Assembly (NCBI GenBank): GCA_039583875.1
Contig: CM077147.1
Coordinates: forward strand, 160,350,821-160,414,820
Length of the DNA stretch: 64,000 nt
Origin: Platanthera guangdongensis
Taxonomy: Eukaryota > Streptophyta > Magnoliopsida > Asparagales > Orchidaceae
Direction: 5' to 3'
Shown here: positions 2,820 through 61,803 of the stretch, in pieces
Layout: every line of letters begins with the position of its first letter
Position numbering within the stretch: the stretch's first letter is position 1
The notes under the pieces: generated by a model
Database searches by the model: none
What the model was told of the DNA's origin: nothing
The model's input: only the letters and a program-made list of their open reading frames with translations
Program-made: the position numbers and the translations under genes

Positions 2820-4561
2820 ATTAAGGGCAGCACAATGTTTGGCTTAAAAAATTTGGTCACTAGCAATTTCTCATTTAAGAGATCATTTTCAAGTTTCTGG
2901 ATAAGTTTCTCATTTGAAACTCTTACCACAGACTCACTGTCAATGATCTCCTTGAGCTGGGCTGCACATGTGCAGCCATATCAGCGAGGGCTTTTTATTG
3001 GTCTTCACACTTTCTTTTAAGACTAAGAAGCTCTTTTGTCTGTCTCTTAGCAAGTAGCTTGCACCTCTTAAATGCCTCAAGAAGTTCTCCATACTTGGCA
3101 ATTATGGAGTTGACATCATCATCAGAGTCTGAATCCCCTTCATCTTTAGATGATTGAGCTTCAGAGTTTGAGTCAGCCTCATGATTTGAAATAAAAGATT
3201 GTGATTTAGCATTTACCTGAGTCTGACCCGGCAGATCCTGGCTGCTTTCTTCATCTATCATCGCCATCAATCCATGGCATTGATCATCTTATTCTTCATC
3301 TTCATCCACCTCTGAGTCACTATCTAAGTGAGACAGAGGTGCCCTGATCCCTATTCTAGTAGCATGGTATTCTTCAGGTTCTTCTTCAGCAACAGCTATT
3401 AGCCCAATGTAGGCTTCTTCTTCTTCAGTGTTTAACCCAGAGGAGGAGTCAGACTAGGTCTTTTCCTTCTTGTCCACAAGGGACTTCTCTTTCTTCTTTT
3501 CCTTGTGGTGCTTTTTCACTCTTTCTTCTTTCCTCTTCACTGGGCAGTCAGTAACTACATGCCCAGGTTTCCTACAGCATAAACAAATAATATTAGAGGA
3601 AGATTGTTTATTAGAGTTTGGAGCATACCTGTCCTCTTTATAAGATTTCCTTCTGTGCTGTAAGCAGGAGGATGACCTTCTGTTCTTCCAATGCCCCTTC
3701 TTCATGAGTTTCTGGAATTGCCTAGAGAAGGCAGCAAGGTCCTTATCAGAGAAACAACTGTCAGAGGAGCTGGACCTTGAGCTCTCAGATTCCGACTCAG
3801 CAATTCTCCTGACTGGAGAGATCTTCCTCCTGCTCCTGGTTGAAGCATCAGCTCTGAAGGCCACAGATTTCTCCTTGCTCTGTGACTTACTGCTCTTCTC
3901 TTCTTCTTCCTTCCTTGCTGCAAGCTGCATCTCATAAGACAGTAGCTTTCCAAATAGGGTTGGAGGTGGAGTGTCAGCTAGCTTGCCTATCTCCCTGATG
4001 ACACAAATCTTTGTGTCCCAATCCTTTGTAAGGGACCTGAGAAATTTGTCATTTAGCTCATAGGTTTCTATATGTTCTCAGTTCATTAACAATTCTGAAA
4101 AATCTTTCAAAACTTTCAGCAATGCCCTCAGACTTTCCTTGTCTGAAGGCCTCATACTCCTAGTTAAGCATGAATTTTCTGTCATCCCTCACCTCTTCTG
4201 AACCCTCCATGAACATAACTAGGTTGTCCCACATCTCCTTGGAGGTCTTGCAGTGCACCCGATTATGGAATGTAGAATCATCTACTGTACTGATAATGAT
4301 ATTTTGAGCTATCTTGTCCATGGAGGCAAGGAGGTGCTCATCTTTGTTCATTTCGTCATAAGACTTAGGAGTCTGGATGTTGGCATCCAGAACTGAGATC
4401 TTCATAGGGATGAAAGGTCCCTCTTTGATTGTGATGTAGATCCTAGGCCCAGCAGCTTCCATGAATAGCCTGACCCTTTCCTTCCAGAGGCCAAACCCTT
4501 CCTTTCTGCAGATTGGTAACTTCATGGCCCCCAGTTCTTTGTAGTTTACACCAGACCCCGT
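2820..4561 (-). pseudogene. gag: Broken gag of element A (copia)
   Basis: The minus-strand translation shows a SIRE-type Gag: an N-terminal MKLPICRKEGFGLWKERVRL block, the DSTFHNRVHCKTSKEMWDNL block, and a zinc knuckle CLCCRKPGHVVTDC (CX2CX4HX4C, near 3541-3585) followed by a lysine-rich stretch. Downstream come acidic serine-rich and coiled-coil spacer regions, cut by H at the VLPLID motif. By comparison with element E the start codon has become ACG at 4561; an in-frame ATG remains at 4525. There are in-frame stops after KFMLN and after the KKEKT block, and frame changes near 4070-4090, so no full Gag can be made. Confidence 0.85.
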
Positions 4562-4897: not shown

Positions 4898-5452
4898 GCT
4901 CCTCAGAGCTTACACCTTAGGCCATCAGCCTTATACATAGATTTTTTACAAAATCTAAACTCAGGACCACAAGGATTCCTACCTCAGAGCCCTGTAGAGC
5001 TCCTACAGCTCAGTGATCCACTGATCACCTACCTCAGCCTTATTTCTAAGGCCTACAACTCAGGCTCTTCAGCCCTACAACTTCAGGCACTCAACCCTAC
5101 TCTCAGAGTGCTGCAACACTCCTACAACTCAGTAACCTTCTAGGTACCTATAGCCTAGCCTCCTCCAAGGCCTACAACTCAGTGATACACTTATCACCTA
5201 CAGCTCAGTGACTCTCCAGTCACCTACCTCAGACACAAGGCCCTACACTCAGGCTGGGAGGATAGCCCTACCTCAGATCCACACTTGCATCCTACCTCAG
5301 AGAGCAGCACTCTCATACCTCAAGCAATAAAACCCTACAGCTCGGGTCCACTCTTGGATCCTACCTCAGTGCCCCAACAGGTCACATACCTTAGTGACTA
5401 ATTAGTCACCTACCTCAGGAACAAAGTGCCTTACACTCAAATTTAGATAAAA
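4898..5452 (-). repeat. Hairpin array with changing stems in the A LTR (R-U5 side)
   Basis: On the plus strand constant linkers such as CTACCTCAG or CTACAACTCAG separate short inverted repeats with different stems. Clear units are GTGATC-CACT-GATCAC, GCCTTA-TTTC-TAAGGC, GGCT-CTTC-AGCC, GAGTG-CTGCAA-CACTC, GTGATA-CACT-TATCAC, GTGACT-CTCC-AGTCAC, GAGAG-CAGCA-CTCTC and GTGACT-AATT-AGTCAC. Others, such as the GGCACTC unit, are imperfect. I count about 15 units. Stems differ but pairing is kept, and the linker is shared with element E. Confidence 0.85.
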
Positions 5453-6091: not shown

Positions 6092-6410
6092 GTCTCAGCG
6101 CTTCTGGACTTGTGAATTTTCTCTGGGTTTGTCTCAACGGTTCTATCTCAGCGTTCTCAGCGGTTTCTTATTAACAACTGAGACAAACTTCTGTCTCAGC
6201 ACTTTCTGTCTCAGCGGTCTCATCAGTTTCTTATTAACAGCTGAGACAAGCTTCTGTCTCAACGCTTTCTTCTCAGCGGTCTCAACACTTTATTCTTAAC
6301 TTCTGAGACAACCTTCTGTATCAGTGCTTTCTTCTCAGCAGTCTCAACGCTTTCTTCTCAGCTATCTCAGTGCTTTCTTCTCAGCTATCTCAGCTGTCTC
6401 AGCGTTTTCT
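6092..6410 (-). repeat. TCTCAGCG motif array in U3 of element A
   Basis: About 15 copies of TCTCAGCG/TCTCAACG, often followed by a TTTCTT tract, lie upstream of the A promoter region in sense orientation. Just beside it, near 6050-6080, is a hairpin built from GCGTTGAGTGA and TCACTCAATGC, the unit that element B has multiplied in its own U3. Confidence 0.75.
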
Positions 6411-10984: not shown

Positions 10985-11790
10985 TCAAGGCCTATCTTTC
11001 TCCTGCAAAGGCAAAGTTAATATAGGCAAAGAATGGGGGTACATCTTTTGTGTACATGTATTGCCTTTGCAAAATGAAGAAGACATGAATGCCTTCCACT
11101 GAGCTCTGCAAAACAAAGATGAGAAGAAAGACACAGAAGAGTAATAACTTGCAAGTACCTCATGGATGCTTGCAAACACCTGTTATCCTCTGCAAAAGGA
11201 AGAGTAAGTAGTAGGCGTGAAAGAAAAATAAGTTGTAAGTACATGAAGGGGACTTGCCAACGTCTGCTAGTTTCCGCAAAAGAGAAGTTATACGCATATT
11301 TGCTGGTATATATGAAAGTAAGCTAAAAGTACCTGAAAGGAATTTGCAAATACCTATTAATCTCTGCAAGGAAAGAGTTAGAAGCAAATATGAAAGAAAA
11401 GATAAGCTGCAAGTACCTGGAGGGAACTTGCAAGTACCTGTTAATCTCTACAAGGAAAGAGTTAGAAACAGATATAAAAATAAAGATAAGCTGCAAGTAC
11501 CTGGAGGGAACTTGCAAATATCTGCTAATCTCTGCAAAAAAGAGTTAGAAGCAAATATAAAAGAAAAGCTAAGTTGCAAGTACCTGGATGGAACTTGTAA
11601 ATACCTGCTAATCTCTACAAGAAAAGAGTTAGAAACAGATATGATATATGAAAGTAAGCTGCAAGTACCTGAAAGGAGCTTGCAAGTATCTGTTAATCTC
11701 TACAAGAAAGGAGTTAGAAGCAGATATGAAAGAAAAGCTAAGATGCAAGTACCTAGATGGAACTTGCAAATGCTGTCTGCTGATATGATA
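10985..11790. repeat. About nine tandem repeats of ~84 bp inside element F
   Basis: Units contain GCAAGTACCTGGAGGGA followed by ACTTGC, so GCAAGT and ACTTGC pair, then a run like CTGTTAATCTCTACAAG and AAGAGTTAGAA. Spacing between successive AAGTACCT sites is about 81-87 bases. The first units, left of 11320, are more degenerate. Because 84 is a multiple of three, the plus strand stays open for 180 codons from 11254, giving a repeated LQVPGGNLQVPVNLY-like peptide. I treat this as a by-product of the period, not a gene. Confidence 0.85.
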
Positions 11791-18233: not shown

Positions 18234-18960
18234 GCATTGAGTGGAGCAAGCTCACTCAACGCCAGAGGTATGACTTCAATAGTGTCTAGTAGAAATTTGC
18301 CTAAGTACAAAAGCATTGACTGTAGTCTACTCACTCAACGCCATATAATATATAGTGTTGAGACTATCTCAGCCTAACTGAAAGTTCGCCAAAAAAGATG
18401 GCTAAGTACAAAAGCATTGAGCGTAGTCTACTCACTCAATGCCATACAACAAAAGGCTGTGAGTCAGGCTGAGTCAGTCTAAGCCTGGAGAAAGTGGCTG
18501 AAAATATGGCCAAGTCCACAAGTGTTAGTGTGGTCCACTCACTCAACGCCATACATCTCAAAGCGTTGAGTGTTGCTATGCTAGTCAACTCCACATAAAT
18601 GTTGAGCAAAAATTTGACTAAGTCCACAGGCGTTGAGTGTAGCTTACTCTCTCAACGCCAGATAACAGAAAAATTCTGTTAAGTAGTTTGGCGTTGAGTG
18701 GAGCTTACTCTCTCAACGTCAAGACACATAAATTTTTACTAAGGCAAAAAACGTTGAGTGGAGCTTACTCTCTCAATGCCATGACACAGAAAGTTTTGCT
18801 AAGGCAAAAAACATTGAGTGTAGCTTACTCTCTCAACGCCGGATAATAGAAAAATTCTGTTAAGTAGTTTGGCGTTGAGTGAAGCTTACTCTCTCAACGC
18901 CAAGGCACAAAAATTTTGCTAAGGCAAAAAAACGTTGAGTGAGGCAAGCTCTCTCAATGA
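18234..18960 (+). repeat. GGCGTTGAG...CTCAACGCC hairpin array in U3 of element B
   Basis: About nine to ten units pair GGCGTTGAGTG or GCATTGAGTG with CTCTCAACGCC or CACTCAACGC. In the first (18234-18262) the stem is about 13 pairs with loop AA. The inner stem varies: GAGC/GCTC in unit one, GTAG/CTAC at 18313-18341 and 18414-18442, GTGG/CCAC near 18520. The later units (18630-18930) are more uniform, with GGAGCTTACTC in the middle. Units are separated by AAATTCTGTTAAG- or TTTTGCTAAGGC-like spacers. Confidence 0.85.
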
Positions 18961-19206: not shown

Positions 19207-19984
19207 CTAGACAGACAGAATGTTGTCTAAGTGTTGTGGCATTGAATGATACCTACTCACTCAATGTCATTGGTTCTAATGATTGAATTTTGGTTAAGTC
19301 CACAGATGCTGAATCATGTTGATGTCAGCAGAGTCAAAAGTCAACCAAAATTCAAATGTTGCGGAAATACTGCCAGAGACGTTGGTGTGGCTAGCTGTTG
19401 ATATCTTCTACAATTATCAAGGAATATTTCATCATTAAGTGTTGGGGCCCACTCACAACAGAGAGTCGTTGAATCGGGAATTAATGGAAGCATGGGCTGA
19501 ATTGGCTAAATCTCGGCCATCAATCCTGGTGGTGGGACCCACTGTTCAATTGGCCTTCAGAGAATAAAAAGAAGCAAATCAGGCTGAGTAAAAAAAATGA
19601 ATTCCCTGTCTAGGTTTTCTGAAAACAAAAAGTGCGGCCGAACTTCATCTTCTTCCTCGCCATTTTTCGTCGAGCTTGGAGAAGTTGTTCAGTACAGAGA
19701 AACTTGCTGGGAAAGATATAGCTGAAGCAATCCCCATTTGCATTAGCAGGATCTGAAGCTAGCAGACCTACAAGTTCTGCAGGGAAAAAAGGAAGCTATT
19801 TGAAGAAAGATTCTACTGTCTACATATTGTCTTCAATAGCAATATCTTGGATCTGCTATCTGCTCAGTCCAAGAAGAAGGAGACATAGAGCTTGCTCTGG
19901 TGTCGAAACATCACATTGTTTATTTCTGTTTTCTGTAAAGATTTTTTGTGAATCTGGGGTTTGTAAGCTTGTACTATAAATGTT

Positions 19985-20115
19985 GGGTCTTAGTGACCCG
20001 TGTTTGGCTTTATGCAGGGTGATAGGTCTTTATGACCTGGGTTGGCTTAGTGCCTAAGTTGTTGGTCTGTGTGACCTGTGTGTGGCCCTATGGGATCGGT
20101 GCTGTAAGTTGTTAA
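19985..20115 (+). repeat. Hairpin array just downstream of the B TATA box
   Basis: Successive inverted repeats are GGGTC-TTAGT-GACCC, AGGTC-TTTAT-GACCT, TTGGC-TTAGT-GCCTAA and GGTC-TGTGT-GACC, with linkers such as TGGGTTGG and TAAGTTGTTG. The linker resembles the sense form TGAGTTGTAG of the arrays in A and E. The array recurs, slightly changed, at 24902-25035. Confidence 0.75.
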
Positions 20116-20364
20116 GAAGCTGAGTTCTGGAGGAAGAGCCAAATCTAACACACTGTTAGATAGGCGCAGAGGGACATCGGATGTACCAAAGTTTGGGGAA
20201 CCACTATAAATTTGATGTGTCGTCTGTGAATGCTCTTGAAAGCTGATCTAATCTAATCAATAGGCACAATAATCTAATAAATAGATTAGAAAAGTTTAAT
20301 AGAGACAAAAACCTATTCACCCCCCTCTAAGTGTAAAGGTAGCCTTGAAAATAAGACTTTCAAG

Positions 20365-24857: not shown

Positions 24858-25284
24858 TGTAAAGATTCTTTGTGAATCTGGGGTTTGTAAGCCTGTACTA
24901 TAAAAGCGGGTCTTAGTGACCTGTGTTTGGCTTTATGATGGGTGATAGGTCTTTGTGATCTAGGTTGGCTTAATGCCTAAGTTGTTGGTTTGTATGACCT
25001 GTGTGTGGTCCTGCAGGATCAGTGCTGTAAGTTGTTAAGAAGCAGAGTTCTGGAGGGAGAGCCAAATCTAACACACTTTTAGATAGGCGCAGAGGGACAA
25101 CGGATGTACCCAGATTGGGGAGCCACTATAAATTTGCTGTGTCATCTGTGAATGTTCTGAAAGCTGATCTAATCTAATCAATGAACACAATAATCTAATA
25201 AATAGATTAGAAAAGTTTAATAGAGACAAAAACCTATTCAACCCCCCTCTAGGTGTAAAGGTAGCCTTGAAAATAAGACTTTCA
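24858..25284 (+). repeat. Truncated internal LTR copy within element B
   Basis: It repeats the last ~430 bases of the 5' LTR from the AAGATT(T/C)TTTGTGAATC block to CTTTCA, including the hairpin array and U5 box. The upstream join lies in an 8-base stretch, TGTAAAGA (24858-24865). The 5' LTR has these same bases near 19934, and the pol gene of related elements has closely similar bases at this point. Confidence 0.85.
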
Positions 25285-36609: not shown

Positions 36610-36833
36610 CAGAAGAATTCGTCGAACTTAGATCGACGAAATGTTGCCCGTTCGTCGAACCCAACTCGACGAGCGCTGAACGCAAACTTTAGCTATAATT
36701 ATTCGTCTAAATGCGATCGACGAACTCTGTATGGTTCGTTGAGCAGAGGTCAGCGAACGTGGGGCACAGAAAATGAACATGTTCATTCTCTGGGCAGATA
36801 TCGACGATCTCACCCCAATTCGTCGAACTCTGG
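36610..36833 (+). repeat. TTCGTCGAAC array in the gag-protease gap of element C
   Basis: Seven or so copies of ATTCGTCGAAC or ATCGACGAA occur after the gag stop. The array continues beyond element E at 48995-49025, so E landed inside it. The motif is the one in the U3 of C itself. Confidence 0.85.
36829..36833. repeat. Left target-site duplication of element E (TCTGG)
   Basis: TCTGG recurs at 48990-48994 directly after the other E LTR. Confidence 0.92.
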
Positions 36834-37090
36834 TGAAAGAATTTGTTTCAAGATGTTCTAAACACCTAGGGGGGGTGAATAGGTTCAATTCTTTTTCTAA
36901 CTTAGGCAGACAAATCTATCTAGTTTAGTAATTTATTCAGCAGAAAACACAGCACAGTATTCACATACACACAACATTCCACAGATTGCACACCAGATTT
37001 ATAGTGGTTCTCCAAATGATGGGTACATCCACTTTCCCCCCTCGCCTATCTAGTAGTGTACTAGATTCGGCCTAACTTCCTTCTTTCTTC

Positions 37091-37385
37091 TCAGATCTGC
37101 AGATCTTACAGATCAGAACCAAGACTGGTTCCTACAACTCAGAGTGAATCCACACTCTTATAACTCATACACAAGCCCTACCTCAGCCTCTTCCACAGGC
37201 CTATAACTCAGAGTGACACCCCACTCCTACAACTCAGGCGAAAGCCCTACCTCAGCCTCTTTCACAGGCCTACAACTCAGGGAACAGATTCCCCTACCTC
37301 AGGCACTCAACCCTACCTCAGCCTTTATAATTTAGGCTTGCAACTCAGAGAAGTAAATCTCCTACACTCAGATCTATTACAGATC
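37091..37385 (-). repeat. Hairpin array with changing stems in the E 3' LTR
   Basis: Plus-strand linkers CTACAACTCA or CTACCTCA separate AGATCTGCAGATCT, GAACC-AAGACT-GGTTC (37116-37131), GAGTG-AATCCA-CACTC (37142-37157), GCCT-CTTCCAC-AGGC, GAGTG-ACACC-CCACTC, GGC-GAAA-GCC, GCCT-CTTTCAC-AGGC, GGGAA-CAGA-TTCCC, GCCT-TTATAATTT-AGGC, GAGA-AGTAAA-TCTC and GATCT-ATTAC-AGATC. About 11 of 13 units pair well. Stem sequence differs between most neighbours. Confidence 0.88.
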
Positions 37386-38007
37386 CTACAAAAGTTATTG
37401 ATGAAAAGATAATAATATCTTCAACCAGATAGAGAGAGAATTGGTTGAAGGCTTCTTGATCAGTTCTTGATAGAACTGATTACTTAAGAATCAACCTGTC
37501 TTAGCTTCTTCAAAGCTTCTTGAATCTGAACAAAGTAATGTTGATCTTCTTGGTGTTGGAGTTGATCTTCAATCAACTTCCTTCAGAAATTAATCTTAAT
37601 TCTTCTTCAGAATTGATCTAAATTCTTTTGGCAGAGTATTCAGGATCTGCCTTCACTGGATGAGGTCTTCTCTCCTTCTTGTATTTCTCTCTCTACAATC
37701 TATTGACTGTTTCTTCTTTCTCTTCTTCTGAATCCTCAATCCTTTAGAGATTATTCTTTATTCACTAATCGTATTCACGATACTTCTTCACAATCGATAA
37801 TTGATTAGCTATTTATTGTTGAGAGAGCATATCTATATATAGGCTTCATCCATGGTTACCGGTTGTTCCGGTTCCAAACGGTCTTCTGACACCTCTGACA
37901 GATGTGAAAACAATGTTAGTAATGACAGCTGTCAAGTCTCTAGTTGTATTACTTCAACCTTCATTGGACTTTGACTCAGCAGCAGAGAATGTCGAGTGAA
38001 TACTTCA

Positions 38008-38403
38008 CATGTATCAACACACATAGTCCATGTGTCGACACAAGTCTTGATGATGTCGACACAACATCACTTTTACTTATCGGCACAGCTTCTGTGGAAT
38101 GTGTCGACAAAAGTCCTGTGTGTCGACACAAACACTCCTTGTCTTGACAAAGTTGGTGTCGACAGAATTCTGGTGTGTGTCGACACAAGTTCTGTGTGTC
38201 GACACAGTCGTTGTCGACAGAATTCTGGAATGTGTCGACAGCTTCTCTGTGTGTCGACACAAATCCTGATGATGTCGACACAATCTGGACCTTGGTGTCG
38301 ACACAGCGTTATCGACAGATTTTCTGTGTGTCGACACAAAATTCTGGGTGTCGACACAATCTGGCCCTTGGTGTCGACACAGCCATTCCCAAGTGTCTAC
38401 ACT
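38008..38403 (-). repeat. TGTGTCGACACA palindrome array in U3 of the E 3' LTR
   Basis: About 16 copies of GTGTCGACACA or TTGTCGACAGA, each a near-perfect palindrome centred on GTCGAC, recur every 15-35 bases with TTCTGTG- or TTCTGGA-like spacers. Several frames stay open across the array by chance of composition; I do not call them genes. Confidence 0.88.
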
Positions 38404-38541
38404 TGTACTTAGAAATTTTTTCTTCCATTTACTTAACCTGCACATGATAACTCAACACACCATCAAATACAACTTGATGCATATCATTGAGTTATGTGAG
38501 GCTTCTCCAAATCTGGTACACATTTTCCAATGTACCCAACA

Positions 38542-38805
38542 ATCTCCCCCTATTTGGAGAAGTCATAACCCTTAGTCAATGATATACATAACTTATAATA
38601 AAATAAACAATATGATGTATAAAAGCATTCAATGACAGGGTAACATATAAACAAAACAAGTATATTATATCATCACAGAATATGATACAAACATAATAAA
38701 CATGAATCATTGTTTTGTTTAAACATCAAAAAAGATTTGTTAACAACAGATTATATAGATCTTAAAACTAAAGATTACAATGTTCTAAAATCTAGTCAAT
38801 CTATC
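38542..38805 (-). other. 3' untranslated region of element E
   Basis: A/T-rich sequence between the third ORF stop and the 3' LTR. AAATAGGGGGAGAT on the minus strand at 38555-38542 is the polypurine tract that primes plus-strand synthesis. Confidence 0.75.
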
Positions 38806-39067
38806 CTAAGGCTGATCAGGCTCCTTGGTCACTATGCCTTTGCCAGACTGGACCCTTGCTTGTACCGGAGCTTCAGTATCTTCAGCTGGCTTCTTGCCTT
38901 TGAGATCCTTCTTCTTAAGTTCTTCAGCCTTAACTTTTTGCCTTTCAAAATAGTGATAAGGTTTGAGAAAGTATTTACTGTGCTCCACAGCTGTAGCAGG
39001 TATTTTCCCAGCCTTGTGATCCCTTCTGAACTAATGTATAACATCTTGTCTCTGCAGATATTTATTC

Positions 39068-39442
39068 TGTTGAAGTTGGAGACCGGGCGGTCTGTCTTGG
39101 CGGGTTAGAGACCGCGGGTCTGGCGGTTTGACTCGGCGACTTGTAAACCGGGCGGTCTAAGCAATCTTCACAGGCGACCTCTCTGCATCTCTTATTGTAA
39201 GCCGTGCGGTTAGTCCTTCTGTCTAACCGCGCGGCCTGTGCGGTTTACTTTGTACAGTCCGCTTAGCTTGTAAATTTTAGTCCACATCTCTTATTTGTAT
39301 TCTCTCTTCTCTCCTCCATTCTATATATAGGGAGGGCATACCTTTGTAATAGTTATCTTTTTTTGGATAATAAAATTTCGATTATTCAAAAGTTTATTCG
39401 GCTTGTTCTCTTCTTCTCGCTTCCTTTCTCTACTTTCTAACA
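39068..39442 (+). repeat. LTR of insert I
   Basis: 375 bases. The first half is built of AGACCG-GG-CGGTCT-type inverted repeats, and further on GCGGTTAG pairs with CTAACCGC across TCCTTCTGT. A similar LTR, fragment K, lies at 59246-59650. Confidence 0.75.
39321..39375 (+). promoter_or_regulatory. TATA box and polyadenylation signal in the LTR of insert I
   Basis: CTATATATAGG at 39321-39331 is followed about 45 bases later by AATAAAA at 39369-39375, the usual short-R arrangement of small copia LTRs. Confidence 0.6.
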
Positions 39443-39454
39443 TGGTATCAGAGG
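39443..39454 (+). promoter_or_regulatory. Primer-binding site of insert I
   Basis: TGGTATCAGAGG follows the LTR end directly and matches initiator tRNA-Met at 11 of 12 bases. Confidence 0.8.
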
Positions 39455-42400
39455 ACACGGTCTTTTCCTCCTGATTCTGTGCGCTCTCTGTTGTTCGCGG
39501 CTTGTCTTCCGCGTTCTGCAGCTTGTTCGCGGCTTGCCTTCTCCTCTGTCCGCGCGGTTTGTTTCTATCCGCGCGGCTTGTTTCTGTCTGCTGCCTGTTT
39601 GCGCGGCTTGCTCTTCTTGTTCTCTTCTCCTCCTGCTCTTTGTCGCAGCGACCTGTTTCCGTATCGCCGCGCTCCTTGCTCTTTCCTGCCGCTCCGACTT
39701 CCTAGTCGCTGCGGTCTGTCTCTGTCCGCGTGTGTTGTCTCTGCACTCGCGGTTTGCTGCTGTGATCTGCCTGACCGTGCGGGTTGTTCCTTTCTTACCC
39801 GCATCTTGGTCGCGGTCACCTGCTCTTCTCCTCTCTTCTGTTCGCTCGGCCTTTTCAGTCCGCGCGACTTCTTCCCCGCTGTGCCTTGATCTGGATCCTA
39901 GCCGCTCGTGTTCAAGCGGCTTCTTCTCTTTTGTTCCCGCCGCGGTTTCACGCGGATTCTTCCTTGTTTGAGCGGCCTCTCCGCCTCTTCGCTCTTAGCT
40001 GCTTCTCTTGTTAGTCGCCGCGACCTCCTGGTTTAGTCGCGCGGCTTGTGCTCTGCACCTTGGTCGTGGCCCTTCGTGCCGCTGGTGTGCTGTCACCGAG
40101 ACCGCCTCTAAGATTTCCACTTTCTCAATTATAACATTCTTAGTAGCCTCTGGAGGGTTATACATCTGGTGAACTAGTTGTTGAATTCCCTCAAAGTTAG
40201 AAAGGGGGTATATGATTTGAGCTACCTCATGCTGACCCCCCTCAATTCCTGCAGCTGGAATTCCTGACTCAGCTGTATTATCATCATCACACAAGAGAGG
40301 ATATCCAAGAGTTGCTCTAACAACATTTGTTATCCATTTAGCATGCTCTGGGCTAGCATTGACTAACAACCTCTCCCCCTTTATGACTTCTCTCTCAATA
40401 TGATCTCTTAAGTCATCTTTCTGAAATATTACTTGTTCAGCCAGATAATTGGTGCCTTCCTTATAAAAAGATCTGAATTTTTATAGCTGATCAGAGAGGA
40501 GTTTCTGTGAGGCTTGTATAGTTGTTTGAACAACAGCCAATTGTTCTTGAAGTTGTTGATCAAACTCAGACTTCTCTTTAGCCTTTTCCTCAGTTAATGT
40601 AGTTGCAGTATTCTTTAACTCAGTAACAATCACATTATGTGATTCAGTAAGATTATCATTCATCCTGAGCTGATTTTCCAGAACATATCCTTGCTTAACT
40701 ACTATGTCATCAATTTGAGTCCTGGCCTCTTGTTGCTACTTGGCCAGATAAACTACAACATTACCTCCTTTATGGAAGCAATCTGTCATCTCCTTCTTAT
40801 ACTGATTGACTTCAAATCTTATTGATTTAATGTCTTGAGCCAAGGTGAACCAGAGTTCCTTATGGCTTTCATCCACATATTTTTCAAGAGCTTGTCTTTG
40901 CTCATCCATTTTAACTTGCAGAGCAATCAACAGTGAAGTGAAGTCAACTGCTGGAGCTGAGGGTTGTGAGGCAGTCTGTAAAGCTTTCTTATAGTTTGAG
41001 CTTTTCTTCCTGTAAACCATCAGTTTTCTCTTCTTTTATGATTCTCCATCATCAGATTCAGAAGACCTTTCAAGGTTCACTGTGTCCTTTGGACTAGAGG
41101 GCAGCTCCTTGTCAGTCCTTGGCAACTCCCCCTTAGTTCATGGCTCCTCCCCCTCAGTCCTTGGCACTACTTCCTCAGTCCTTACTTCTTGTAAGTCAGG
41201 AAACAATTCCTCAAGAGTGAATTCTTGTTGCAGTTAAACTGGAGGAACATCTGTATCTTGTACAGTTAATGGAGCATCATCTAATGCAGATGTATCATCC
41301 ATTGATATATCCTGTGCAGGGATGTTGTCATGCTGTGTCTGTTCAACATCTGTTAGAAGCACAGTTAGTGTATCTGGCTCAGTATCTAGTATAGTTTGAT
41401 TAATATCATCTATTACCTCAAGAATAGTTTGAGTGGCTGTTTCACTCTCTAATGCAGCTTGCTTTTTCTCATGAGCAACTTCTGGAGGCAAGGCCTCTTG
41501 TTGAGCTAGAGAAAGCTCATTGGCTCCCCCTAGATGAAGCACATCCTGAATTTGATCCAGTTGGATGGTGCTTTCTGGAATATGCTCCCCCTGCATCTGA
41601 CTATCATCTACATTCTTAGGGGCAGATGATTTCCTTGTAGATTCTTGTTGTTCTTCATCTGAACTGAAGATCACTTATTCTTCTGAATCACTAGAAGATT
41701 CAGGTTTCCTGGGGGTTATCTTTTTCTTTTTTAGTTGTGGTTGTTTCTGTGGTGTAGAACCATCTTTTGTTAGAACTCTTTCCCACCTGGATAGTATTTT
41801 CATATCCATCCTTCTCATGTGGTTTATTCTAAATCATGTTGTGTGGTCATCACTTCAGGAATATTCATTGTCAGATACAGACTCAGTATTCTTCCTAGAT
41901 TAGGTTTCTTCAAAGTTTCCTTGATCTTGTCAAAGATCACAACAGACCGGTTAGTTTTTATTCTGAAAATAACTCTGGTCATTAAGCTGAACATATAGGT
42001 TGAGATCATATCATGTCCTTCTAGTTTGCAGAGAATTACTTTTCCCATAATCTCTGAAAGAAACTTTCCTTGGGAGTTCATCCCCTTCCTCTGCATTGAT
42101 GATTCAATCTTATTGGTGGGATCCAGTCCACACCATTGAAGAGCTTCTTTTGTCATTGAAGATGTGACTTCATCTTCTTCCCGAGTCCTGGGCAACTATA
42201 GTGTCTTCCTCAGATGCTTATGGGTAAGTTTCACCTTGCTTCCTTAAATTGATGACCTAATCTTCAATCCAATTGAATCCAGGGTTGCTGTTGTATAGAA
42301 TTCAAGAACCTCCGTCTTTCAGATCTTGGTAGGTTCTGAAACTAGATATTCCAAACCACTTTCTTTGATTATGGTTATCACATCTCTGATCTCAGTCGTA

Positions 42401-42564
42401 GCACTCTCAAAAGCATCGCGAACTAATTCATAGCCTTCGTTGATGTTGTTCTCTAACTTTGGCGCCATTGGTGACGAGAAATTTGAGGAGAAGAGAGATG
42501 AAGGTTTGTCGACTCAAAGATTTGGTCTCGAAAATGTTGAGAGCGTAGTCGACAAAGTTGTTCT

Positions 42565-42965
42565 GTGACCTATTTATATGTTTGTCAACACAGAAGGTCA
42601 AAAGATGGGGTAATAAATACTTAATGTGTCGACACTATAGAGATTGTGTCGACACAAACTTCTAATGTCTCGACAGAGTCAGACAACACTATATGTCGAC
42701 AAAGTTTGCGATGTGTCGACACGGACTTCTTAATAGCTGACTTTAATATCTGCGTGTCGACACAGATGACTGTATGTGTCGACACTACTATCTAAATGAT
42801 TGAACTTCTATGTGTCGACACCAAACTCTGAGTGTCGACACCACTATCTCACCACTATTTTGTTGTGTCGACATAACTTTCCTTATGTGTAGACACTAAC
42901 TACTATATATCGACACAAATTTCATTTTGTATCGACATTAACTACTATATGTCGACATTGAATTA
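42565..42965 (-). repeat. TGTCGACAC array between RNase H and the third ORF of element E
   Basis: About 15 copies of TGTGTCGACAC or degenerate ATATCGACA occupy the gap between the end of pol (about 42983) and the third ORF start at 42477. It is the same motif that fills U3 of the E LTRs. It shows no open frame continuous with either gene. Confidence 0.85.
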
Positions 42966-42982
42966 CTTAGTCAGATTTACTA

Positions 42983-45900
42983 AGTTACTCTAGGTTTAAC
43001 ATGCCTAATTCAATTTTGAAATAATTGAATTTAGTTTCATCTAGTGGTTTAGTAAACATGTCTGCAATTTGATTATTTGTGGTGACAAATTCCAAACAAA
43101 TATCTTCTTTTTCAACATGCTCTCTAATGAAGTGAAATCTAGTTTCTATATGCTTTGTTCTACTATGTGATACAGGATTTTTAGCAATAGAAATAGCACT
43201 TGTAGAATCACAAAATAGTGGAGTTCTACTTACCTTGAGACCATAGTCTTCAAGTTGATGTTGAATCCATAAAAGCTGAGCACATCAGCTGCCTGCAACA
43301 ACATACTCAGACTCTGCAGTGGAAATTGCCACACTTGTCTGCTTCTTACTGCTCCATGACACCAATCTACCACCTAGAAACTGACATGTGCCAGAGGTGC
43401 TCTTTCTATCTTCTTTGCAACCTGCAAAGTCTGCATTTGAAAAACTAGTCAGTAGAAAGTCTCTATTCTTAGGGTACCAAAGACCAAGATTAGGTGTGCC
43501 CTTAAGATATCTCAAAATTATTTTAACTGCAGTATAATGAGATTCTTTAGGGCTTGCTTGGTACCTAGCACAGACACATGTAGCATATATAATGTCTGGT
43601 CTACTGGCAGTTAAGTATAGAAGGGAGCCACTTATCCATCTATACAAAGACTCATCTATAGGTTTTCCTGCATCATCTTTGCCTAAAGGCATACTCATCC
43701 CCATTGGAGTTCTCATGGTGGTGGATGACTCCATACCATATTTCTTAATTAACTCCTTGGTGAACCTAGACTGTGATATGGACAGGCCATCATCAGTCTG
43801 TCTTACTTGGAGTCCCAAGAAGAATTTCAGCTCACCCATACTACTCATCTCAAACTTCCCTTGCATAGGTTTTGCAAACTTCCTACAAAGGTTGTTTTCT
43901 ATAGATCCAAAGATTATGTCATCAACATAAATCTGGACTAGGATCATCTTGCCCTTTGACTCCCTAAGGAATAGAGTCTTGTCTATTTTCCCCTTGAAAA
44001 TTTATTCTCAATGAGGAAGGTAGACAATGTTTCATACCAAGCCCTAGGGGCTTGTTTCAAACCATATAAGGCTTTCTTAAGCCTATAAACATAATCAGGA
44101 TAAAGTGGATCAACAAAACCTAGGGATGTTCAACATAGACTTCTTCTTTCAAATTACCATTTAGGAATGCTGACTTGACATCCATTTGGTATACTTTGAA
44201 CCCTTGGAAAGCAGCAAAGGCAAGGAATAGCCTTATTGCTTCCAACCTTGCCACTGGTACAAATGTCTAATCAAAGTCAATGCCCTCTTCCTGTCTATAA
44301 CCTTTGGCAACCAGTCTTGCTTTGTTCTTCATTATGATGTCATTTTCATCTAGTTTGTTCCTGTAGATCCACTTTGTCTCAATAATATTATGATCCTTTG
44401 GTTTTGGAACCAACTCCCATACTTTACACCTTATGAATTGATTCAGATCCTCCTGCATTGCATCAATCTAGTTGGAGTCTTGTATGGCTTCTTCAAATCT
44501 CTTTGGTTCCATCTATGATAGGAAACTTGAGCAAAGCACTGTGTTCATGTGTTTGCTTCTGGTTTGCACACCATATCTTGGATCACTAATAATTTGGTGT
44601 GCTGGATGATCCTTTAGATTCCTTATTGCTGGAGGCATTCTATCAGCAATTTGAACTTCTTCAATTTCTCCACCATGCTGAACTTCATTGTCTTCGATCT
44701 CAGCTTGTGTACCTTGTACTCCCCCTGGACAGAAACCATCATTTTCCTCATACTGCCTTGCAGTTTGGTCTTCATTAATAGTCAGCATGTCCAACTTTTC
44801 TTTTAAAACTGTTGAGCTACAAGAATTGCTAGACAACTCACAGTTAATTAGCTCAGATTCATCAAACACTACATGAATAGATTCTTCTACAACTTGTGTA
44901 GTCAAGTTGTAGACCCTATATGCCTTACTGTTATTGCTGTACCCAACAAATATCTCATCTTGGGATTTGGCAGCAAACTTAGTTAGGTGAGACTTGCCAG
45001 TGTTAAGCACATAACACCTGCTACCAAAGATCCTAAAGTAGGATATGTTTGGTTTTCTGCCTTTCATAATCTCATAGGGTGTCGTTTTGTAGTTCTTAGT
45101 TATGGATGCTCTATTGAGAACATGACAAGCAGTATTTACTGCCTCAGCCCCAGAAATATTCAAGGAGAGAAGTGTCACTTAGTAGAGTTCTACCAGCCTC
45201 AATAAGAGTCCTATTCTTTCTTTCAGCAATTCCATTTTACTGAGGTGTTCTAGGTGAGGAGAATTCCTGAGGAATCCCTAGTTCTTCACAAAATCTTATC
45301 ATAGATTAAGACTGAAATTCAGTTTCATGGTCACTTCTAATTTTGACCACTGAATTGTTAAGTTCATTCTGAATTTGTTTAACAAAGTTATGAAAGGCAG
45401 TAGGGGTTTCAGATTTCTGCCTCAAAAAGAAAACCCATGTAAATCTAGAATAGTCATCTACTATCACAAAAGTATAGACTTTCCTACCTAGACTATGAAC
45501 TGGCATAGGACCAAATAGATTTGGTCTGCTTGTCTTTTTGACAAGCTGAACATATACCCTCTTTTATGCACTTAAACTGAGGACCATTCCTCACTAACTC
45601 TAAACTATAGAGTTGGCCTATAGTCTTATAGTTCAGATGAGCTAGCCTCTTGTGCCATTGTACACACTGAGATGCTTTCTCATCTGTAACTAAACATACA
45701 TGAGAGTTCATGTTTTCATAATCAAAATTTAAATAATAAACATTCCCTTTCCTATAACCAGACAAGATCACCTTTTGATCACTTGTCCTTTTAATCTGAC
45801 ACTCATTCTTAATAAATGAAGTGTCATACACAAGATCAATCATCTGACTTATGCTTATCAAGTTATGTTTCAAACCTTTTACATAAGCCACTTGAGTGAT

Positions 45901-46100
45901 TGTTATAGAACTAGTAGAAATGTTACCAAACCCTTTTATGACCCCTTTTTCTGATCCACCAAAGATCACTTTGGGTCCATTCTCTATGGGAGTATAGTCC
46001 TTTAACATTCTTCTTATTCCAGTCATATGCCTGGAACATCCACTATCCAAGTACCATATAGGGGTATTGCAACTTGGATCCACCTTACTAGAACCAGGCT
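42983..46100 (-). pseudogene. pol: Broken protease, integrase, reverse transcriptase and RNase H of element E
   Basis: Protease WYLDSGCSRHMTG keeps its Asp (about 46050). Then WHKRLAHLNYKTIGQLY and CSACQKDKQTK of the integrase zinc region. At 45495-45510 the frame jumps from KQTK directly into LFGPMPVHSLG, deleting about 25 residues including the first catalytic Asp of integrase. IRSDHETEF, the RT start KWIYRNKLDENDIIMKNKAR (44458 leftward), YVDD (43929-43918), YKGYTP-type linkers and RNase H (FSNADFAGCKEDRKSTSG, AESEYVVAGS, CDSTSAISIAKNP) follow. Stops and shifts occur at several points. Confidence 0.87.
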
Positions 46101-47418
46101 GATCCTGGCACTGATCTTCTTCTGTCAAGGTCATCAGCCCTTTACAATAATGTTCTTCAATTCTATTTACTGAGTCCAGCAATTTCAAGAACTCGGCCTC
46201 TTCTGCATCCTCTTTAATTACCAATAGTCCTATGTTTGCTTCAGCTTCAGCTTCAGCCTCAGAATCTGATGATGAAGAATCTGACCAGCTTTTTTGCTTC
46301 TTTGCAACAAAGGATTTCTCCTTCTTGAACTTGTTTTTTAGTTTCTTCTTGTCATTAGATTCTTTCCTTTTGTCATGACAATCAGCTACCACATGTCCAG
46401 GCCTGTTGCAACAATAGCAAACAATCTTAGTTGAAGATAATTTACTAGGTTTAGAGCCATACCTATCCTTCCTAGAGGATTTCTTTTTCTGATAGTAATC
46501 ATCCTTGGATTGTGAAGAGGATGGCTTGGATCTCCACTATTTCTTCTTCAAGAACCTTTCAAATTGTTTTGAGAAATCAGCTAAGTCTTCATCAGAATTT
46601 GGACTATCTGATGTGTGACTGTCAAAATTTTCTGAAACTACTTCTGCAGCTTTCCTAGGAGGAGATGGAGACATCCTCCTGTCCTTTATTATGGCTTCAG
46701 TCTTGAAAGCCACTGACTTATCTCTGTAATCAACTTTATTACTTTTCTCCTCCTCCTTTCTGACCATCAGTTGCATCTCATATGAAAGCAGTTTGCCAAA
46801 TAATGTAGGAGGTGAGATTTCTGCTAGTCTGGCCACTTCCCTAATGACACATATCTTGGTGTCCCAGTCCTTAGTTAATGATCTCAGAAACTTATCATTT
46901 AAATCATATGTACTGAATACTTTTCCATATGACATCAATTCATTAACTATTCTGAAGAACTTCTTGTAACATTCAGTTATGCTGTCTGTTTTAGATTGTC
47001 TAAAACTTTCATACTCCTGATTCAGCATAAACTTTCTGTCTTCTCTCACTTCTTCTGAACCCTCCATGTAGACAATCAGGGTGTCCCACATTTCTTTGGA
47101 GGTCTTGCAGTGAATCAAATTTTGAAATGTTGAATCATCTATAGCACTGACTATTATATTATGTGCTCTCTTATCCATATTAGACAAGATGACCTCATTC
47201 TTTGTCATTTCAGAATACTCCTTTGATGTCCTGAGATTTGCATCAATAACTGAAACTTTCATTGGGATGAATGACACTTCTTTGACTGTCATATAGATTC
47301 TTGGATCTGAAGCTTCCATAAACAGTCTAGCACTTTCTTTCTATATGCCAAAAATCTCTTTCCTGCATATAGGTAACTTCATGGAACCAAACTCCTTATG
47401 ATTCTCAATGGAACCCAT
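46101..47418 (-). pseudogene. gag: gag of element E, mostly one frame
   Basis: The minus-strand ATG at 47418 opens MGSIENHKEFGSMKLPICRK. A TAG near 47343 and a stop near 46534 are the visible stops; the rest is continuous into protease. It shows YMTVKEVSFIPMKVSVIDAN, IDDSTFQNLIHCKTSKEMWD, FFRIVNELMSYGKVFSTYD, and the knuckle CYCCNRPGHVVADC (about 46420-46380), then a basic run and an acidic serine block. The long coiled-coil spacer that A and B have between the knuckle and protease is absent. Confidence 0.87.
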
Positions 47419-47484
47419 TTTGCCTAATAGATTTCTGCCTTGGAGATCTACTCAGCCTTTTAAGTCTATTCTTTGAGTAACCTA

Positions 47485-47496
47485 GCTCTGATACCA
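47485..47496 (-). promoter_or_regulatory. Primer-binding site of element E, tRNA-Met type
   Basis: The minus strand reads TGGTATCAGAGC two bases after the 5' LTR, identical to element C. Confidence 0.92.
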
Positions 47497-47498
47497 CT

Positions 47499-48989
47499 TG
47501 AAAGAATTGGTTTCAAGATGTTCTAACTTCCTTCTTTCTTCTCAGATCTGCAGATCTTACAGCTCAGAACCTAGACTGGTTCCTACAACTCAGAGTGATC
47601 CACACTCCTACAACTCAGGCACAAGTCCTACCTCAGCCTCTTCCACAGGCCTACAACTCAGAGTGACACCCCACTCCTACAACTCAGGCAAAAGCCCTAC
47701 CTCAGCCTCTTTCATAGGCCTACAACTCAGGGAACAGATTCCCCTACCTCAGGTAGTCAGCCCTACCTCAGCCTTTATAATTTAGGCTTACAACTCAAAG
47801 AAGTAAATCTCCTACACTCAGATCTATTACAGATCCTACAAAAGTTATTGATGAAAAGATAATAATATCTTCAACCAGATGGAGAGAGAATTGGTTGAAG
47901 GATTCTTGATCAGTTCTTGATAGAACTGATTACTTAAGGATCAACATGTCTTAGCTTTTTCAAAGCTTCTTGAATCTGAACAAAGTAAGGTTGATCTTCT
48001 TGGTGTTGGAGTTGATCTTCAATCAGCTTCCATCAGAAATTAATCTGAATTCTTCTTTAGAATTGATCTGAATTCTTCTGGCAGACTGTTCAGGATCTGC
48101 CTTCACTGGATGAGGACTTCTCTCCTTCTTATTTTTCTCTCTCTACAATCTGGTGACTGTTTCTTCTTTCTCTTCTTCTGGATCCTCAATTGTTCAGAGA
48201 TTATTCTTTATTCACTGATCGTGTTCATGATCACTTCTTCACAATCGATAATTGATTAGCTATTTATTATTGAGAGAGCATATCTATATAGGCTTCATCC
48301 ATGGTTACCGGCTGTTCCGGTTCCAAATGGTCTTCTGACACCTCTAATAGATGTGACAGCAATGTCAGTAATGATAGCTGTCAAGTCTCCAGTTGTATTA
48401 CTTCAACCTTCATTGGACTTTGACTCAGCAGCAGAGAATGTCGAGTGAATACTTCACCTGTGTCGACACACATAGTCCATGTGTCGACACAAGTCTTGAT
48501 GATGTCAACACAGCTTCATTTTTACTTCTCGACACAGCTTCTGTGGAATGTGTCGACACAAGTCCTGTGTGTCGACACAAACACTCCTTGTCTTGACAAA
48601 CTTGGTGTCGACAGAATTCTAGTGTGTGTCGACACAAGTTCTGTGTGTCGACATAGTCGTTGTCGACAGAATTCTGGAATGTGTCGACAGCTTCTCTATG
48701 TGTCGACACAAATCCTGATGATGTAGACACAATCTGTCCCTTGGTGTCGATACAACGTTGTCGACAGATTTTCTGTGTGTCAACACAAATTCTGGGTGTC
48801 GACACAATCTGGCCCTTGGTGTCGACATAGCCATTCACAAGTGTCGACACTTGTACTTAGAAATTTTTTCTTCCATTTACTTAACCTGCACATGATAACT
48901 CAACACAACATCAAATACAACTTGATGCATATCATTGAGTTAGGTGAGGCTTCTCCAAATCTGGTACACATTTTCCAATGTACCCAACA
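47499..48989 (-). repeat. 5' LTR of element E (right copy), with an internal deletion
   Basis: 1,491 bases, matching 36834-38541 except that about 217 bases near the LTR 3' end are missing (left-copy 36850-37075). The missing part includes the U5 box and the CACCCCCCCTAGGTG tract. The hairpin array is retained at 47541-47835 and the TGTCGACACA array at 48459-48853. Confidence 0.92.
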
Positions 48990-48994
48990 TCTGG
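48990..48994. repeat. Right target-site duplication of element E (TCTGG)
   Basis: Matches 36829-36833. Element C continues at 48995. Confidence 0.92.
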
Positions 48995-59838: not shown

Positions 59839-61803
59839 TGAAAGTGAGGGTTAGGTCTACAATACTCTAGAGGGGGGGAGGGTGAATAGAGTATATTTAA
59901 AATTTGTTAGGTTTCAAATAAAAGTGCTGATACAGCTTTTGCTGTAAACTGAAAGAGTGCAGTAATTAAGGAAACAGAGAATAAAAAATAATAAACTTAA
60001 TCACATCCACACAACAAGAACAAAAAGAAAAAGGTAGGCAACCAGACGACACAAGAAGTTTATAGTGGTTCCCCAAATCTGGGTAGTCCACTCTTCTACC
60101 AACCTTGGTAGGAATCCACTCAGGTTTTTGATCAGGTGCCTGACACCAATGGGTTTTGATCAGGTCCCCAAAAACCAACTCGAGTCGTTTGGAAGGAGAC
60201 TTGCAACCAGGAATCACTTTTGAAGGGAGATGACAACCCTTTATACAGGAGGGGGTGAGAGAGTGATTATGTCTTCTCTTTCTCAATAAACTGAGAAGAC
60301 TTATGTGGATTGATGTTTATCAAGAGCTCCCCCTGAGATGTAGAATGGTTCATGAAGATTTGGAAGCTTTGCTGTAGGGTGATAGGTCTTCAATCAGAGT
60401 TCTTGACAAGCAGTGATGCAGGATCTTCTTGACTGATTTGATATCTGTTGTCCTTGGAAGTCCTGGAGAGAATGCTGAAGAAGAAGACTCTTGATATAGT
60501 ATGATTGTTCTTCTTCTGAATGAATGAATATAACTGCCTATCACTGTAAGCTTCAATATGATTTCTGTGTAAAGCTTTTCTACTGCTGTATAAAATCTTG
60601 CAGTCAGGCTATGTGTGTCTCTGTATTTTTCTAACTGAGTATATTCTTTTTTTCATACTAACTACTGATTGTCGATCTTCTTTTCCTCTATGTCTTTTTA
60701 AAAATTTGAATCCTCTGTAATTAATGCTGATGGCCTGAGAATAATCGGCATTAATGTATTTCCCCAACTGTCTTGTGGAAAATCAGCAAGTAATATTCTA
60801 GAGGAAGACTGTAGCTAATGCTCTCTCTAACGGATACATTCAGAGAATGTTAGAGCATTAATTGTTCAGGAATTTCCGCATTAGAATGGGGACAGATGGT
60901 CGGAAATGGTTAAGTCTGGAATCATCGAACAGTTGGCAGAATTCGTCGAACAGAGTTATCAATTCGTCGAGCTGAGATATTGAATTCGTCGACCAGACAA
61001 CTTCTGTTCGTCGAGCTGATTCCAAGTTCATCGAGCTGATAACAGAGCTTGCATGCTTCAGAACCTTTGCCATTTCTGTCTGAAGTTCGTCGAGCTGACA
61101 ATTGCATTCGTCGACTGGAGTTCAGCAACAATTCTGGACTTAGTCAAGTAATTTGTGTTTGACTGATATTCTGTGTGTCGACATGAATCTTCTGGTGTCG
61201 ACACAGGTGGATGTCGACTGATTAGTGTTGGTGTCGACACAAGTTTTCTGGTGTCGACATAAGTTTTCTGGTGTCGACATAAGTTTTCTGGTGTCGACAT
61301 AGTTGGTGTCGACACATGCCCTAAGTGTCGACACAAAACTTCTGGTTCCAGAATTCGTCGAGTAGAGTGCTGAGTTCGTCGCCTTGAGAAGTTGTGAACT
61401 TGAGGTCCAAGTTCGTCGAGCTCAGAATCTTGTTCGTCGACCAAAGTCTAAAGTTGGACTTAGAATAATCTGGAGTTATCCTGACTTTAGGTTGTTGAAG
61501 TGTCCCAATTTTCGTCGACCAGAGAATGAAGATCGTCGAGCTGAGCTCAGAGAAATATCTCAAGATCGTCAAGCTGAGAATGTCTTTCGTCGACCTGAGT
61601 TCGACGAACGTCAAACTCATTTTTACTGGTCTTGAAATCTTCTAAATCTTGAGTCTCTGATGGTCTTGTTGATAGCCGGTCTATCTGATGTTGATTTTAA
61701 GGACTTGGCCTAGACTCTAGGACACAACTATGACTCTGGCTATACATGTTGGGTCACATCCTAAGTTTAGTGAACCTAGCCCAAATCAACTAGGGATCCA
61801 ACA
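59839..61803 (-). repeat. 3' LTR of element J
   Basis: TGTTGGATCCCTAG at 61803 to CTTTCA at 59839, 1,965 bases. U3 carries TTCGTCGA motifs (60912-61130 and 61348-61615) and, between them, TGTCGACAC motifs (61176-61335), a combination seen in no other LTR here. TATAAAGGG near 60247-60238, hairpins at 60075-60250 and the U5 box (60093-60059) follow in sense order. Confidence 0.88.
60075..60250 (-). repeat. Constant-loop hairpins in the J LTR
   Basis: In plus coordinates: CTACC/GGTAG (60096-60111 region), TCAGG/CCTGA (60120-60143) around a loop containing TTTTGATCAGGTG, GGG/CCC (60151-60168) around TTTTGATCAGGT, and CGAGTC/GACTTG (60181-60203). They correspond one to one with the hairpins of element C at 34495-34605. 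Confidence 0.75.

Follow-up and report, generated by a model that had tools for sequence, protein, structure and literature searches.

Palindrome arrays and leader signals in related elements

Sireviruses are plant-specific (PMC3599292, in the part available), and the closest described counterparts of the array considered here are the RM palindrome boxes of their LTRs. In the accessible sections of the source, these repeated-motif (RM) boxes are placed upstream of the TATA box, with a single sequence per element and, in 12 of 13 cases, a CGG-CCG core (Bousios et al., 2010; PMC2829016). The accessible text of that paper contains neither “hairpin” nor “downstream of the TATA.” In a window of 64,000 nucleotides from the orchid Platanthera guangdongensis (the whole stretch of DNA that was analysed), many short palindromic units are likewise arrayed in Sirevirus LTRs. 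Unlike the RM boxes, the array lies past the TATA box, both in the element described below (element E) and in the 51 of 77 loci where a loosely defined TATA box was found, and its stems vary within one array and form 69 clusters, with constant linkers between them.

Retroviral psi signals are made of a few individually conserved stem-loops that are bound by nucleocapsid. The array resembles psi in its short hairpins, in the guanosines between them, in its position from promoter to gag and in belonging to an element with a CCHC Gag, and binding is proposed by analogy. In place of the few individually conserved hairpins of psi, however, the array has 5–20 interchangeable units. Part of the RNA of BARE, a plant Copia element from barley, forms a pool that is packaged, and conserved signals for dimerisation and for packaging are stated for it in the accessible portion of the source (PMC3735527); unlike here, no hairpin array is described, and “hairpin” and “stem-loop” are absent from that portion. 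Such an array is also absent from the accessible text of PMC10760457, PMC3601003, PMC3735527, PMC12786077 and PMC3599292, and from a largely open-access literature as covered by titles and the beginnings of abstracts. The original prediction that no array of this kind had been described in plant LTRs agrees with this survey, with the amendment that Sirevirus palindrome arrays of another kind are known (PMC2829016, in part).

In the literature examined, much of it accessible in part, the leader and packaging structure of plant Copia elements has not been worked out. Because one genome offers tens of thousands of strongly covarying natural variants, both the structure and its recognition word are directly testable. 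The array also gives a view of apparent structural selection on a transposon leader that otherwise resembles degenerate tandem repeats.

Element E and its LTRs

Element E is a Copia/Sirevirus retrotransposon on the minus strand (36834–48989), delimited by its LTR pair, their ends, a target site duplication and Pfam domains. The 5-bp duplication TCTGG flanks it at 36829–36833 and 48990–48994, the LTRs are bounded by TG...CA, and matches to Retrotran_gag_2, Pol_BBD, gag_pre-integrs, SH3_retrovirus and RVT_2 occur in separate pieces on the minus strand. The right LTR (47499–48989, minus strand; 1491 nt) adjoins the primer binding site and is the 5′ copy, and the left LTR (36834–38541, minus strand; 1708 nt), beside which lies one purine-rich tract, is the 3′ copy; the two are 94% identical. 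The CCHC zinc knuckle of Gag can be read from the sequence at 46378–46419 in E and at 3544–3585 in a second, divergent Sirevirus of the window, K (minus strand in both).

Several Sirevirus traits are found in E. The primer binding site TGGTATCAGAGC (47485–47496, minus strand) starts at 47496 and lies in the junction CA-AGTGG-TATCAGAGC; a junction of LTR and primer site reading CA-ATTGG (or AGTGG)-TATCAGAGC is a Sirevirus trait (PMC2829016, section 12, in part), and E has TTTCA-AGTGG-TATCAGAGC before 47485. The C-rich putative integrase signal described for Sirevirus LTRs (PMC2829016, section 13, in part) is found near the LTR 3′ end in the left LTR only (36865–36883, minus strand). A TATA box recognised by its sequence lies about 700 nt into both LTRs (left, 37836–37841; right, from 48290; minus strand), which corresponds to the mid-LTR TATA box with palindrome boxes upstream that is expected of Sireviruses, and TGTCGACA repeats occur upstream of it. 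Palindromic TGTGTCGACACA repeats that resemble RM boxes and are separate from the array are present in U3 upstream of the TATA box (38100–38383 and 48549–48825), and similar stretches occur at 61127–61345 and 42623–42917. The 5′ LTR lacks 214 bp of the left LTR (36862–37075, with CTAA at both edges; compare 47520–47530), a segment that holds the C-rich signal together with the TATAGTGG box and was likely lost after insertion, between the CTAA microhomologies.

Hairpin arrays in the window

The array of the left LTR spans 37094–37385 (minus strand; sequence, unit positions and arm-swap test), where the original prediction had placed it, and is kept in the right, 5′ LTR at 47545–47835 (minus strand; sequence, arm swap and folding). 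About 11 inverted repeats had been proposed; counted by linkers, the number is 13 segments per LTR. The left units lie at 37094–37105, 37116–37131, 37142–37157, 37168–37177 (decayed), 37186–37200, 37211–37226, 37237–37246, 37255–37269, 37280–37293, 37302–37312, 37321–37337, 37348–37361 and 37371–37385. Units are bounded by plus-strand linkers CTAC-N0-2-CTCA, and segments start with G and end with C, except for one in each copy, the fourth on the left and the twelfth on the right. Where the linker is exactly CTAC..CTCA, the sense RNA contains UGA and UAG 5–7 nt apart, a distance set by the inner 0–2 nt. The linker form CUGAGGUAGG contains the animal let-7 seed, which we take to be a coincidence.

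The array is located about 450–750 nt past the TATA box and ahead of the primer site. Because E lies on the minus strand, as its primer site and TATA box indicate, the sequence printed earlier has to be reverse-complemented to give the element RNA. A position in the 5′ leader, downstream of the TATA box, had been predicted and agrees with this geometry and with the sense-only depletion of AUG described below, but the strand that was printed is not that of the RNA.

K carries a 20-unit array with the same grammar and other stems (4964–5430, minus strand). A third element type, T1, has apparent short hairpins with other linkers at the corresponding LTR place (19930–20125, plus strand; local fold z −2.2 sense and −3.8 antisense), and in its close relative T2 the same region (24865–25045, plus strand) has local fold z of −2.3 sense and −1.4 antisense.

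Complementarity of the arms was compared with a control in which 3′ arms were re-dealt among units 20,000 times, and none of the swaps matched the observed count in any array. Watson–Crick (WC) pairs number 51 of 59 in the left array of E (mean of swaps 25.9, maximum 43), 51 of 59 in the right (25.9, maximum 41) and 79 of 96 in the 20 segments of K (42.1, maximum 62). The E and K segments were cut by hand at linkers, with linkers one or two letters off allowed, and later tests used a fixed rule. A 69-nt tandem duplication makes up part of the E array, and its hairpins are therefore not all independent. Against dinucleotide shuffles, the plus strand of the two E arrays folds with z of −3.76 and −2.97, and short-span folds of E and K give −3.0 to −4.8 on both strands; the unrestricted fold of the sense strand of the right array has z −2.04, with competing long-range pairs. 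The excess of pairing over shuffled sequence on which the original prediction depended is thus present.

In an Rfam search of 36800–38600 (up to E 1), the lone match was a snoRNA model at 37393–37477, outside the array (E 0.89; 20.3 bits versus a gathering score of 47). A pattern scan of IMG/VR returned five stretches whose printed parts are short tandem repeats, judged by eye to be unrelated.

Occurrence in the host genome and covariation

The two-hairpin linker pattern CCTACNNCTCAGN{8,16}CCTACCTCAGN{8,16}CCTAC has 24,599 exact matches in the 4.25 Gb host genome (12,284 forward and 12,315 reverse), and 0 when it is read backwards. A conserved box flanks the array towards the primer site, TATAGTGGTTC.CCAA...GGTACATCC as read on the plus strand (37000–37030; element on the minus strand), and the pattern TAGTGGTTCNCCAAN{2,8}GGTACATCC has 92,482 matches in the genome versus 0 for its control.

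From among the linker matches listed, 83 loci were taken, all from the initial 31 Mb of a single contig (30 cut automatically and 53 fetched). With one further locus (L014) and the three window arrays added, and ten loci with a duplicate unit list removed (nine overlap in place and L094 is another copy), the set comprises 77 arrays holding 686 units, 454 of them distinct. This part of the contig (C1) is the source of the genome loci throughout, except for L014 and for 44 loci in the counts of shared mismatches and recurrent units. Units were parsed by linkers chosen by the investigators, in one plant genome, and p-values are indicative because array copies are related. Within 700–900 nt of the arrays, the TATAGTGG box is present in 67 of 77 loci (median 119 nt, primer-site side), the C-rich signal in 43 (median 253 nt) and an exact primer-site match in 3; the TATA boxes of the 51 loci mentioned above lie on the other side of the array, at a median of 385 nt. 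Decay, together with 3′ or solo LTRs, may account for the missing boxes, TATA boxes and primer sites.

Pairing persists across these units. The outermost G-C pair is near fixed (83% of 454 units; 79% expected), and inner pairs 1–4 are WC in 85, 80, 76 and 71% of units versus 35, 28, 31 and 27% expected from column composition. A run of three or more WC pairs, counted from the outside, occurs in 283 of 454 units and in 41 of the 44 units that recur in at least three loci; these 41 have stems of 3–6 bp. Among units present in at least two loci (n = 207), pair 1 is formed in 193 of 207 (73 expected) and pair 2 in 191 of 204 (61 expected). A count by cluster reduces the 532 of 682 units with a G at the start, a C at the end and a length of at least 10 nt to 69 clusters with one representative each: 177 of 207 positions are WC at pairs 1–3, versus 66.8 (sd 7.2, maximum 96) in shuffles, and none of 20,000 shuffles reached that value. 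The claim that stem sequence changes and complementarity stays therefore holds for both E arrays, K and the 69 clusters, whose arms pair beyond the controls.

Among 509 unit pairs with exactly two differences, these fall at partner positions in 50 (37.6 expected), and 12 of the 50 keep WC pairing. Compensatory changes are thus modest in number, and most of the close variants have the look of post-insertion decay. Between units present in at least two loci, nine compensatory double changes were found, eight of them from C-G to G-C, and these eight may represent few events. The copies of E itself were unusable for covariation, as the 39 others scored (of 3,493 candidates) are 95–96% identical and too close. 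Nineteen arrays were aligned (mean identity 0.81), namely the right array of E and 18 of the 26 loci kept after thinning; the eight others were short or had no array end found. The sense consensus fold of this alignment is −71.9 versus −32.5 in 100 column shuffles (sd 5.1, lowest −49.3), with 94% of cells paired. Of its 57 pairs, 7 change on both sides, 15 change on a single side, and one row or more breaks 25 of them. Covarying pairs, the second point on which the original prediction turned, are thus observed, and together with the pairing excess they support its proposal of selection on structure or of a mechanism that makes inverted repeats.

A sample free of linker-based selection was obtained by the conserved box alone, with 73 loci fetched from among 100 matches listed; the remaining 27 appeared to be partner LTRs or were loci that the set above already contained. 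By regular expression, 47 of the 73 have at least three linkers of the CTAC type, and 16 belong to another, the M type. The ten others comprise two CTAC-type loci of the CTCGG variant (L127 and L166), four M-type loci (L113, L122, L124 and L130), one (L116) that begins as CTAC type and is then masked by N, and three that are interrupted or degenerate (L115, L151 and L153). L104, L114, L127 and L166 form a subfamily in which CTCGG replaces CTCAG in the linker and the hairpin grammar is the same. L151 and L153 are without an array in the 521 nt fetched and share an unrelated sequence, beginning GGGTGTGTCGGCGGAGG, about 100 nt after the box, which may reflect either nested insertion or LTR recombination.

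The M type has a reversed layout, with a constant loop, TTTTGA..AGGT, and varying stems. Its arm pairs (n = 22) give a weaker signal than the CTAC type (70 of 132 versus 42.8, maximum 62 in 5,000 swaps), and its consensus fold is −29.3 sense versus −14.9 (sd 4.0, lowest −26.3) and −28.5 antisense versus −17.1 (sd 3.7).

A proposed structured RNA leader and competing explanations

We conclude from these comparisons that base pairing is probably selected in the scanned 5′ leader of a Sirevirus RNA. Comparison of copies shows complementary stems of changing sequence, constant spacers and a predicted place in the leader. R of Sire has been estimated at 10 bp (PMC3601003, in part), and the array would accordingly fall in U5. 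In the proposed arrangement, the array would sit in the 5′ leader of the sense transcript, between TATA box and primer site, and each unit would form one RNA hairpin of about 3–6 bp, joined to its neighbours by the constant spacer UGAG-N0-2-GUAG. Units would multiply by tandem duplication, of which the 69-nt duplication in E is a visible case, and drift by compensatory change, and scanning ribosomes would be able to melt the weak hairpins. In the least certain step, a guess by analogy, the short stems would hold many unpaired G/U-rich spacers open as a multivalent platform for CCHC Gag, which would serve packaging or dimerisation of the genomic RNA.

Two features expected of a packaging signal can be compared with this scheme. 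Leader stem-loops between transcription start and gag are predicted here by the TATA box, the primer site and AUG depletion. Unpaired guanosines would be offered by the sequence UGAG/GUAG, but sense linkers have a predicted mean unpaired probability of only 0.47. Retroviral nucleocapsid favours unpaired G, and the unpaired bases of the sense RNA, which are U/G-rich because those of the antisense strand are A/C-rich, would thus suit it. The whole reading, a sense-RNA leader structure maintained by compensatory change together with a putative Gag platform, is preferred tentatively and may well prove wrong. Several observations count against it: other Sirevirus types of the same genome carry other constant sequences at the array's place in the LTR, exact primer sites are few among the 77 loci, and the sense RNA of the right E array forms competing long-range pairs in an unrestricted fold. 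A broader version is possible but rather doubtful, namely a renewable leader, like beads on a string, in which 5–20 interchangeable hairpins of free sequence hold a repeated Gag word open and which several Sirevirus lineages within a single plant reinvented with other constant words (CTAC, M and T types).

That the leader is scanned is suggested by the distribution of AUG. In the 77 arrays, the sense strand has 69 AUG versus 312 expected from dinucleotides and the antisense strand 68 versus 65; the array expectation is inflated because C always precedes the linker TG, and inside units alone the counts are 42 versus 170 (sense) and 60 versus 83 (antisense). Over 300 nt towards the TATA box (76 loci), the counts are 78 versus 319 in sense and 299 versus 342 in antisense, and over 230 nt towards the primer site they are 164 versus 443 and 116 versus 139. 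At the U3 end, 900–1400 nt beyond the array (23 loci), the values are 204 versus 208 and 158 versus 175. In the box-anchored sample (L098–L170), 60–500 nt from the box, 49 CTAC-type loci have 28 versus 346 in sense and 148 versus 167 in antisense, and 20 M-type loci 19 versus 111 and 186 versus 180. This sense-only depletion shows what appears to be a leader scanned by ribosomes. Because AUG is avoided inside the array itself, a shunt or internal entry that bypasses it is disfavoured.

The same observation supports translation control, in which a scanned leader of weak hairpins would pace scanning or prevent stronger structure and the UGA and UAG present in each exact linker would end stray frames. 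The shortness of the recurrent stems suits it as well. Depletion of AUG, however, accounts for a scanned leader and leaves both the stem pairing and the constant linkers unexplained, and translation control is an unlikely explanation, though the strongest of the alternatives.

Folding predictions point to the other strand. With RNA parameters, antisense linkers are unpaired with a mean probability of 0.83 and antisense loops with 0.81, and the antisense loops of recurrent units are composed of A 0.50, C 0.31, G 0.07 and T 0.12, so that the unpaired bases of this strand, A/C-rich and G-poor, look as if designed for its folding. Folded as DNA, the antisense strand of the right E array forms a row of short hairpins with a near-identical centroid (z −3.70, 0 of 200 shuffles). 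These results would suit hairpins that act in minus-strand strong-stop cDNA, for example by blocking long folds or self-priming before strand transfer. G.T is a milder mismatch than C.A in DNA, yet the mismatches that arrays share are C.A and not G.T on the antisense strand, by 14 to 1. In sense terms, internal stem mismatches common to at least two loci are 14 G.U versus 1 A.C (p 0.001), some of the 14 perhaps non-independent, and private mismatches are 57 versus 37 (p 0.05; Fisher p 0.017 for shared versus private). These counts cover 168 loci; 24 further loci, 20 of them M-type, were dropped for having fewer than three units. The bias disfavours a function in antisense RNA. The evidence on strand conflicts in part: mismatches and AUG were weighed above the cleaner antisense fold, and action in cDNA is kept as a rather improbable rival to a sense-RNA structure.

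A role as palindromes in DNA, either cis-regulatory boxes or a target of host silencing, would have precedents in the palindromic boxes of Sirevirus U3 (PMC2829016, section 9, in part) and in the maize small RNAs that map to such clusters (PMC10760457, in part). The array nevertheless lies past the TATA box, its stems have no common sequence and its shared mismatches are strand-biased, which makes this role improbable.

A purely mutational origin, in which template switching during reverse transcription or replication copies one arm onto the other without selection, would yield double changes in one step, including exchanges of C-G to G-C that pass through no wobble intermediate. Single changes in recurrent stems on the antisense strand (16 G>A and 9 C>T) lean the same way as the private mismatches, and part of the wobble bias may therefore be mutational. 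Template switching predicts neither the G.U bias of shared mismatches nor the constant linkers; this bias favours selection on RNA, with a mutational contribution possible, and the purely mutational account is, if anything, slightly the less credible of these last two. Chance or composition, to which the ease of finding short stems by eye might lend credit, is rejected by the arm-swap, shuffle and reversed-pattern controls and is of negligible probability.

Other structured or repeated stretches

That excess local structure extends beyond the array counts against the sense-RNA leader reading. A random draw of 45 of the 77 loci, folded in 80-nt windows, gives a mean local-fold z within the array of −1.0 to −1.7 in sense and −1.4 to −2.0 in antisense. 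Values below 0 also occur in the adjoining 80 nt to either side, towards the TATA box and in U3, for example −1.6 and −1.9 at +800 to +880, so the array is not the sole structured stretch; in sense, means are −0.5 to −1.2 on the TATA side up to +640 and −0.9 to −1.6 beyond. On the primer-site side, more than 80 nt from the array, mean z is about 0.

The window contains other tandem arrays at 6130–6403 (62-nt units), 18631–18959 (units of about 60 nt) and 11315–11771 (84-nt units), and the first two of these lie near LTRs of other Sirevirus-like elements.
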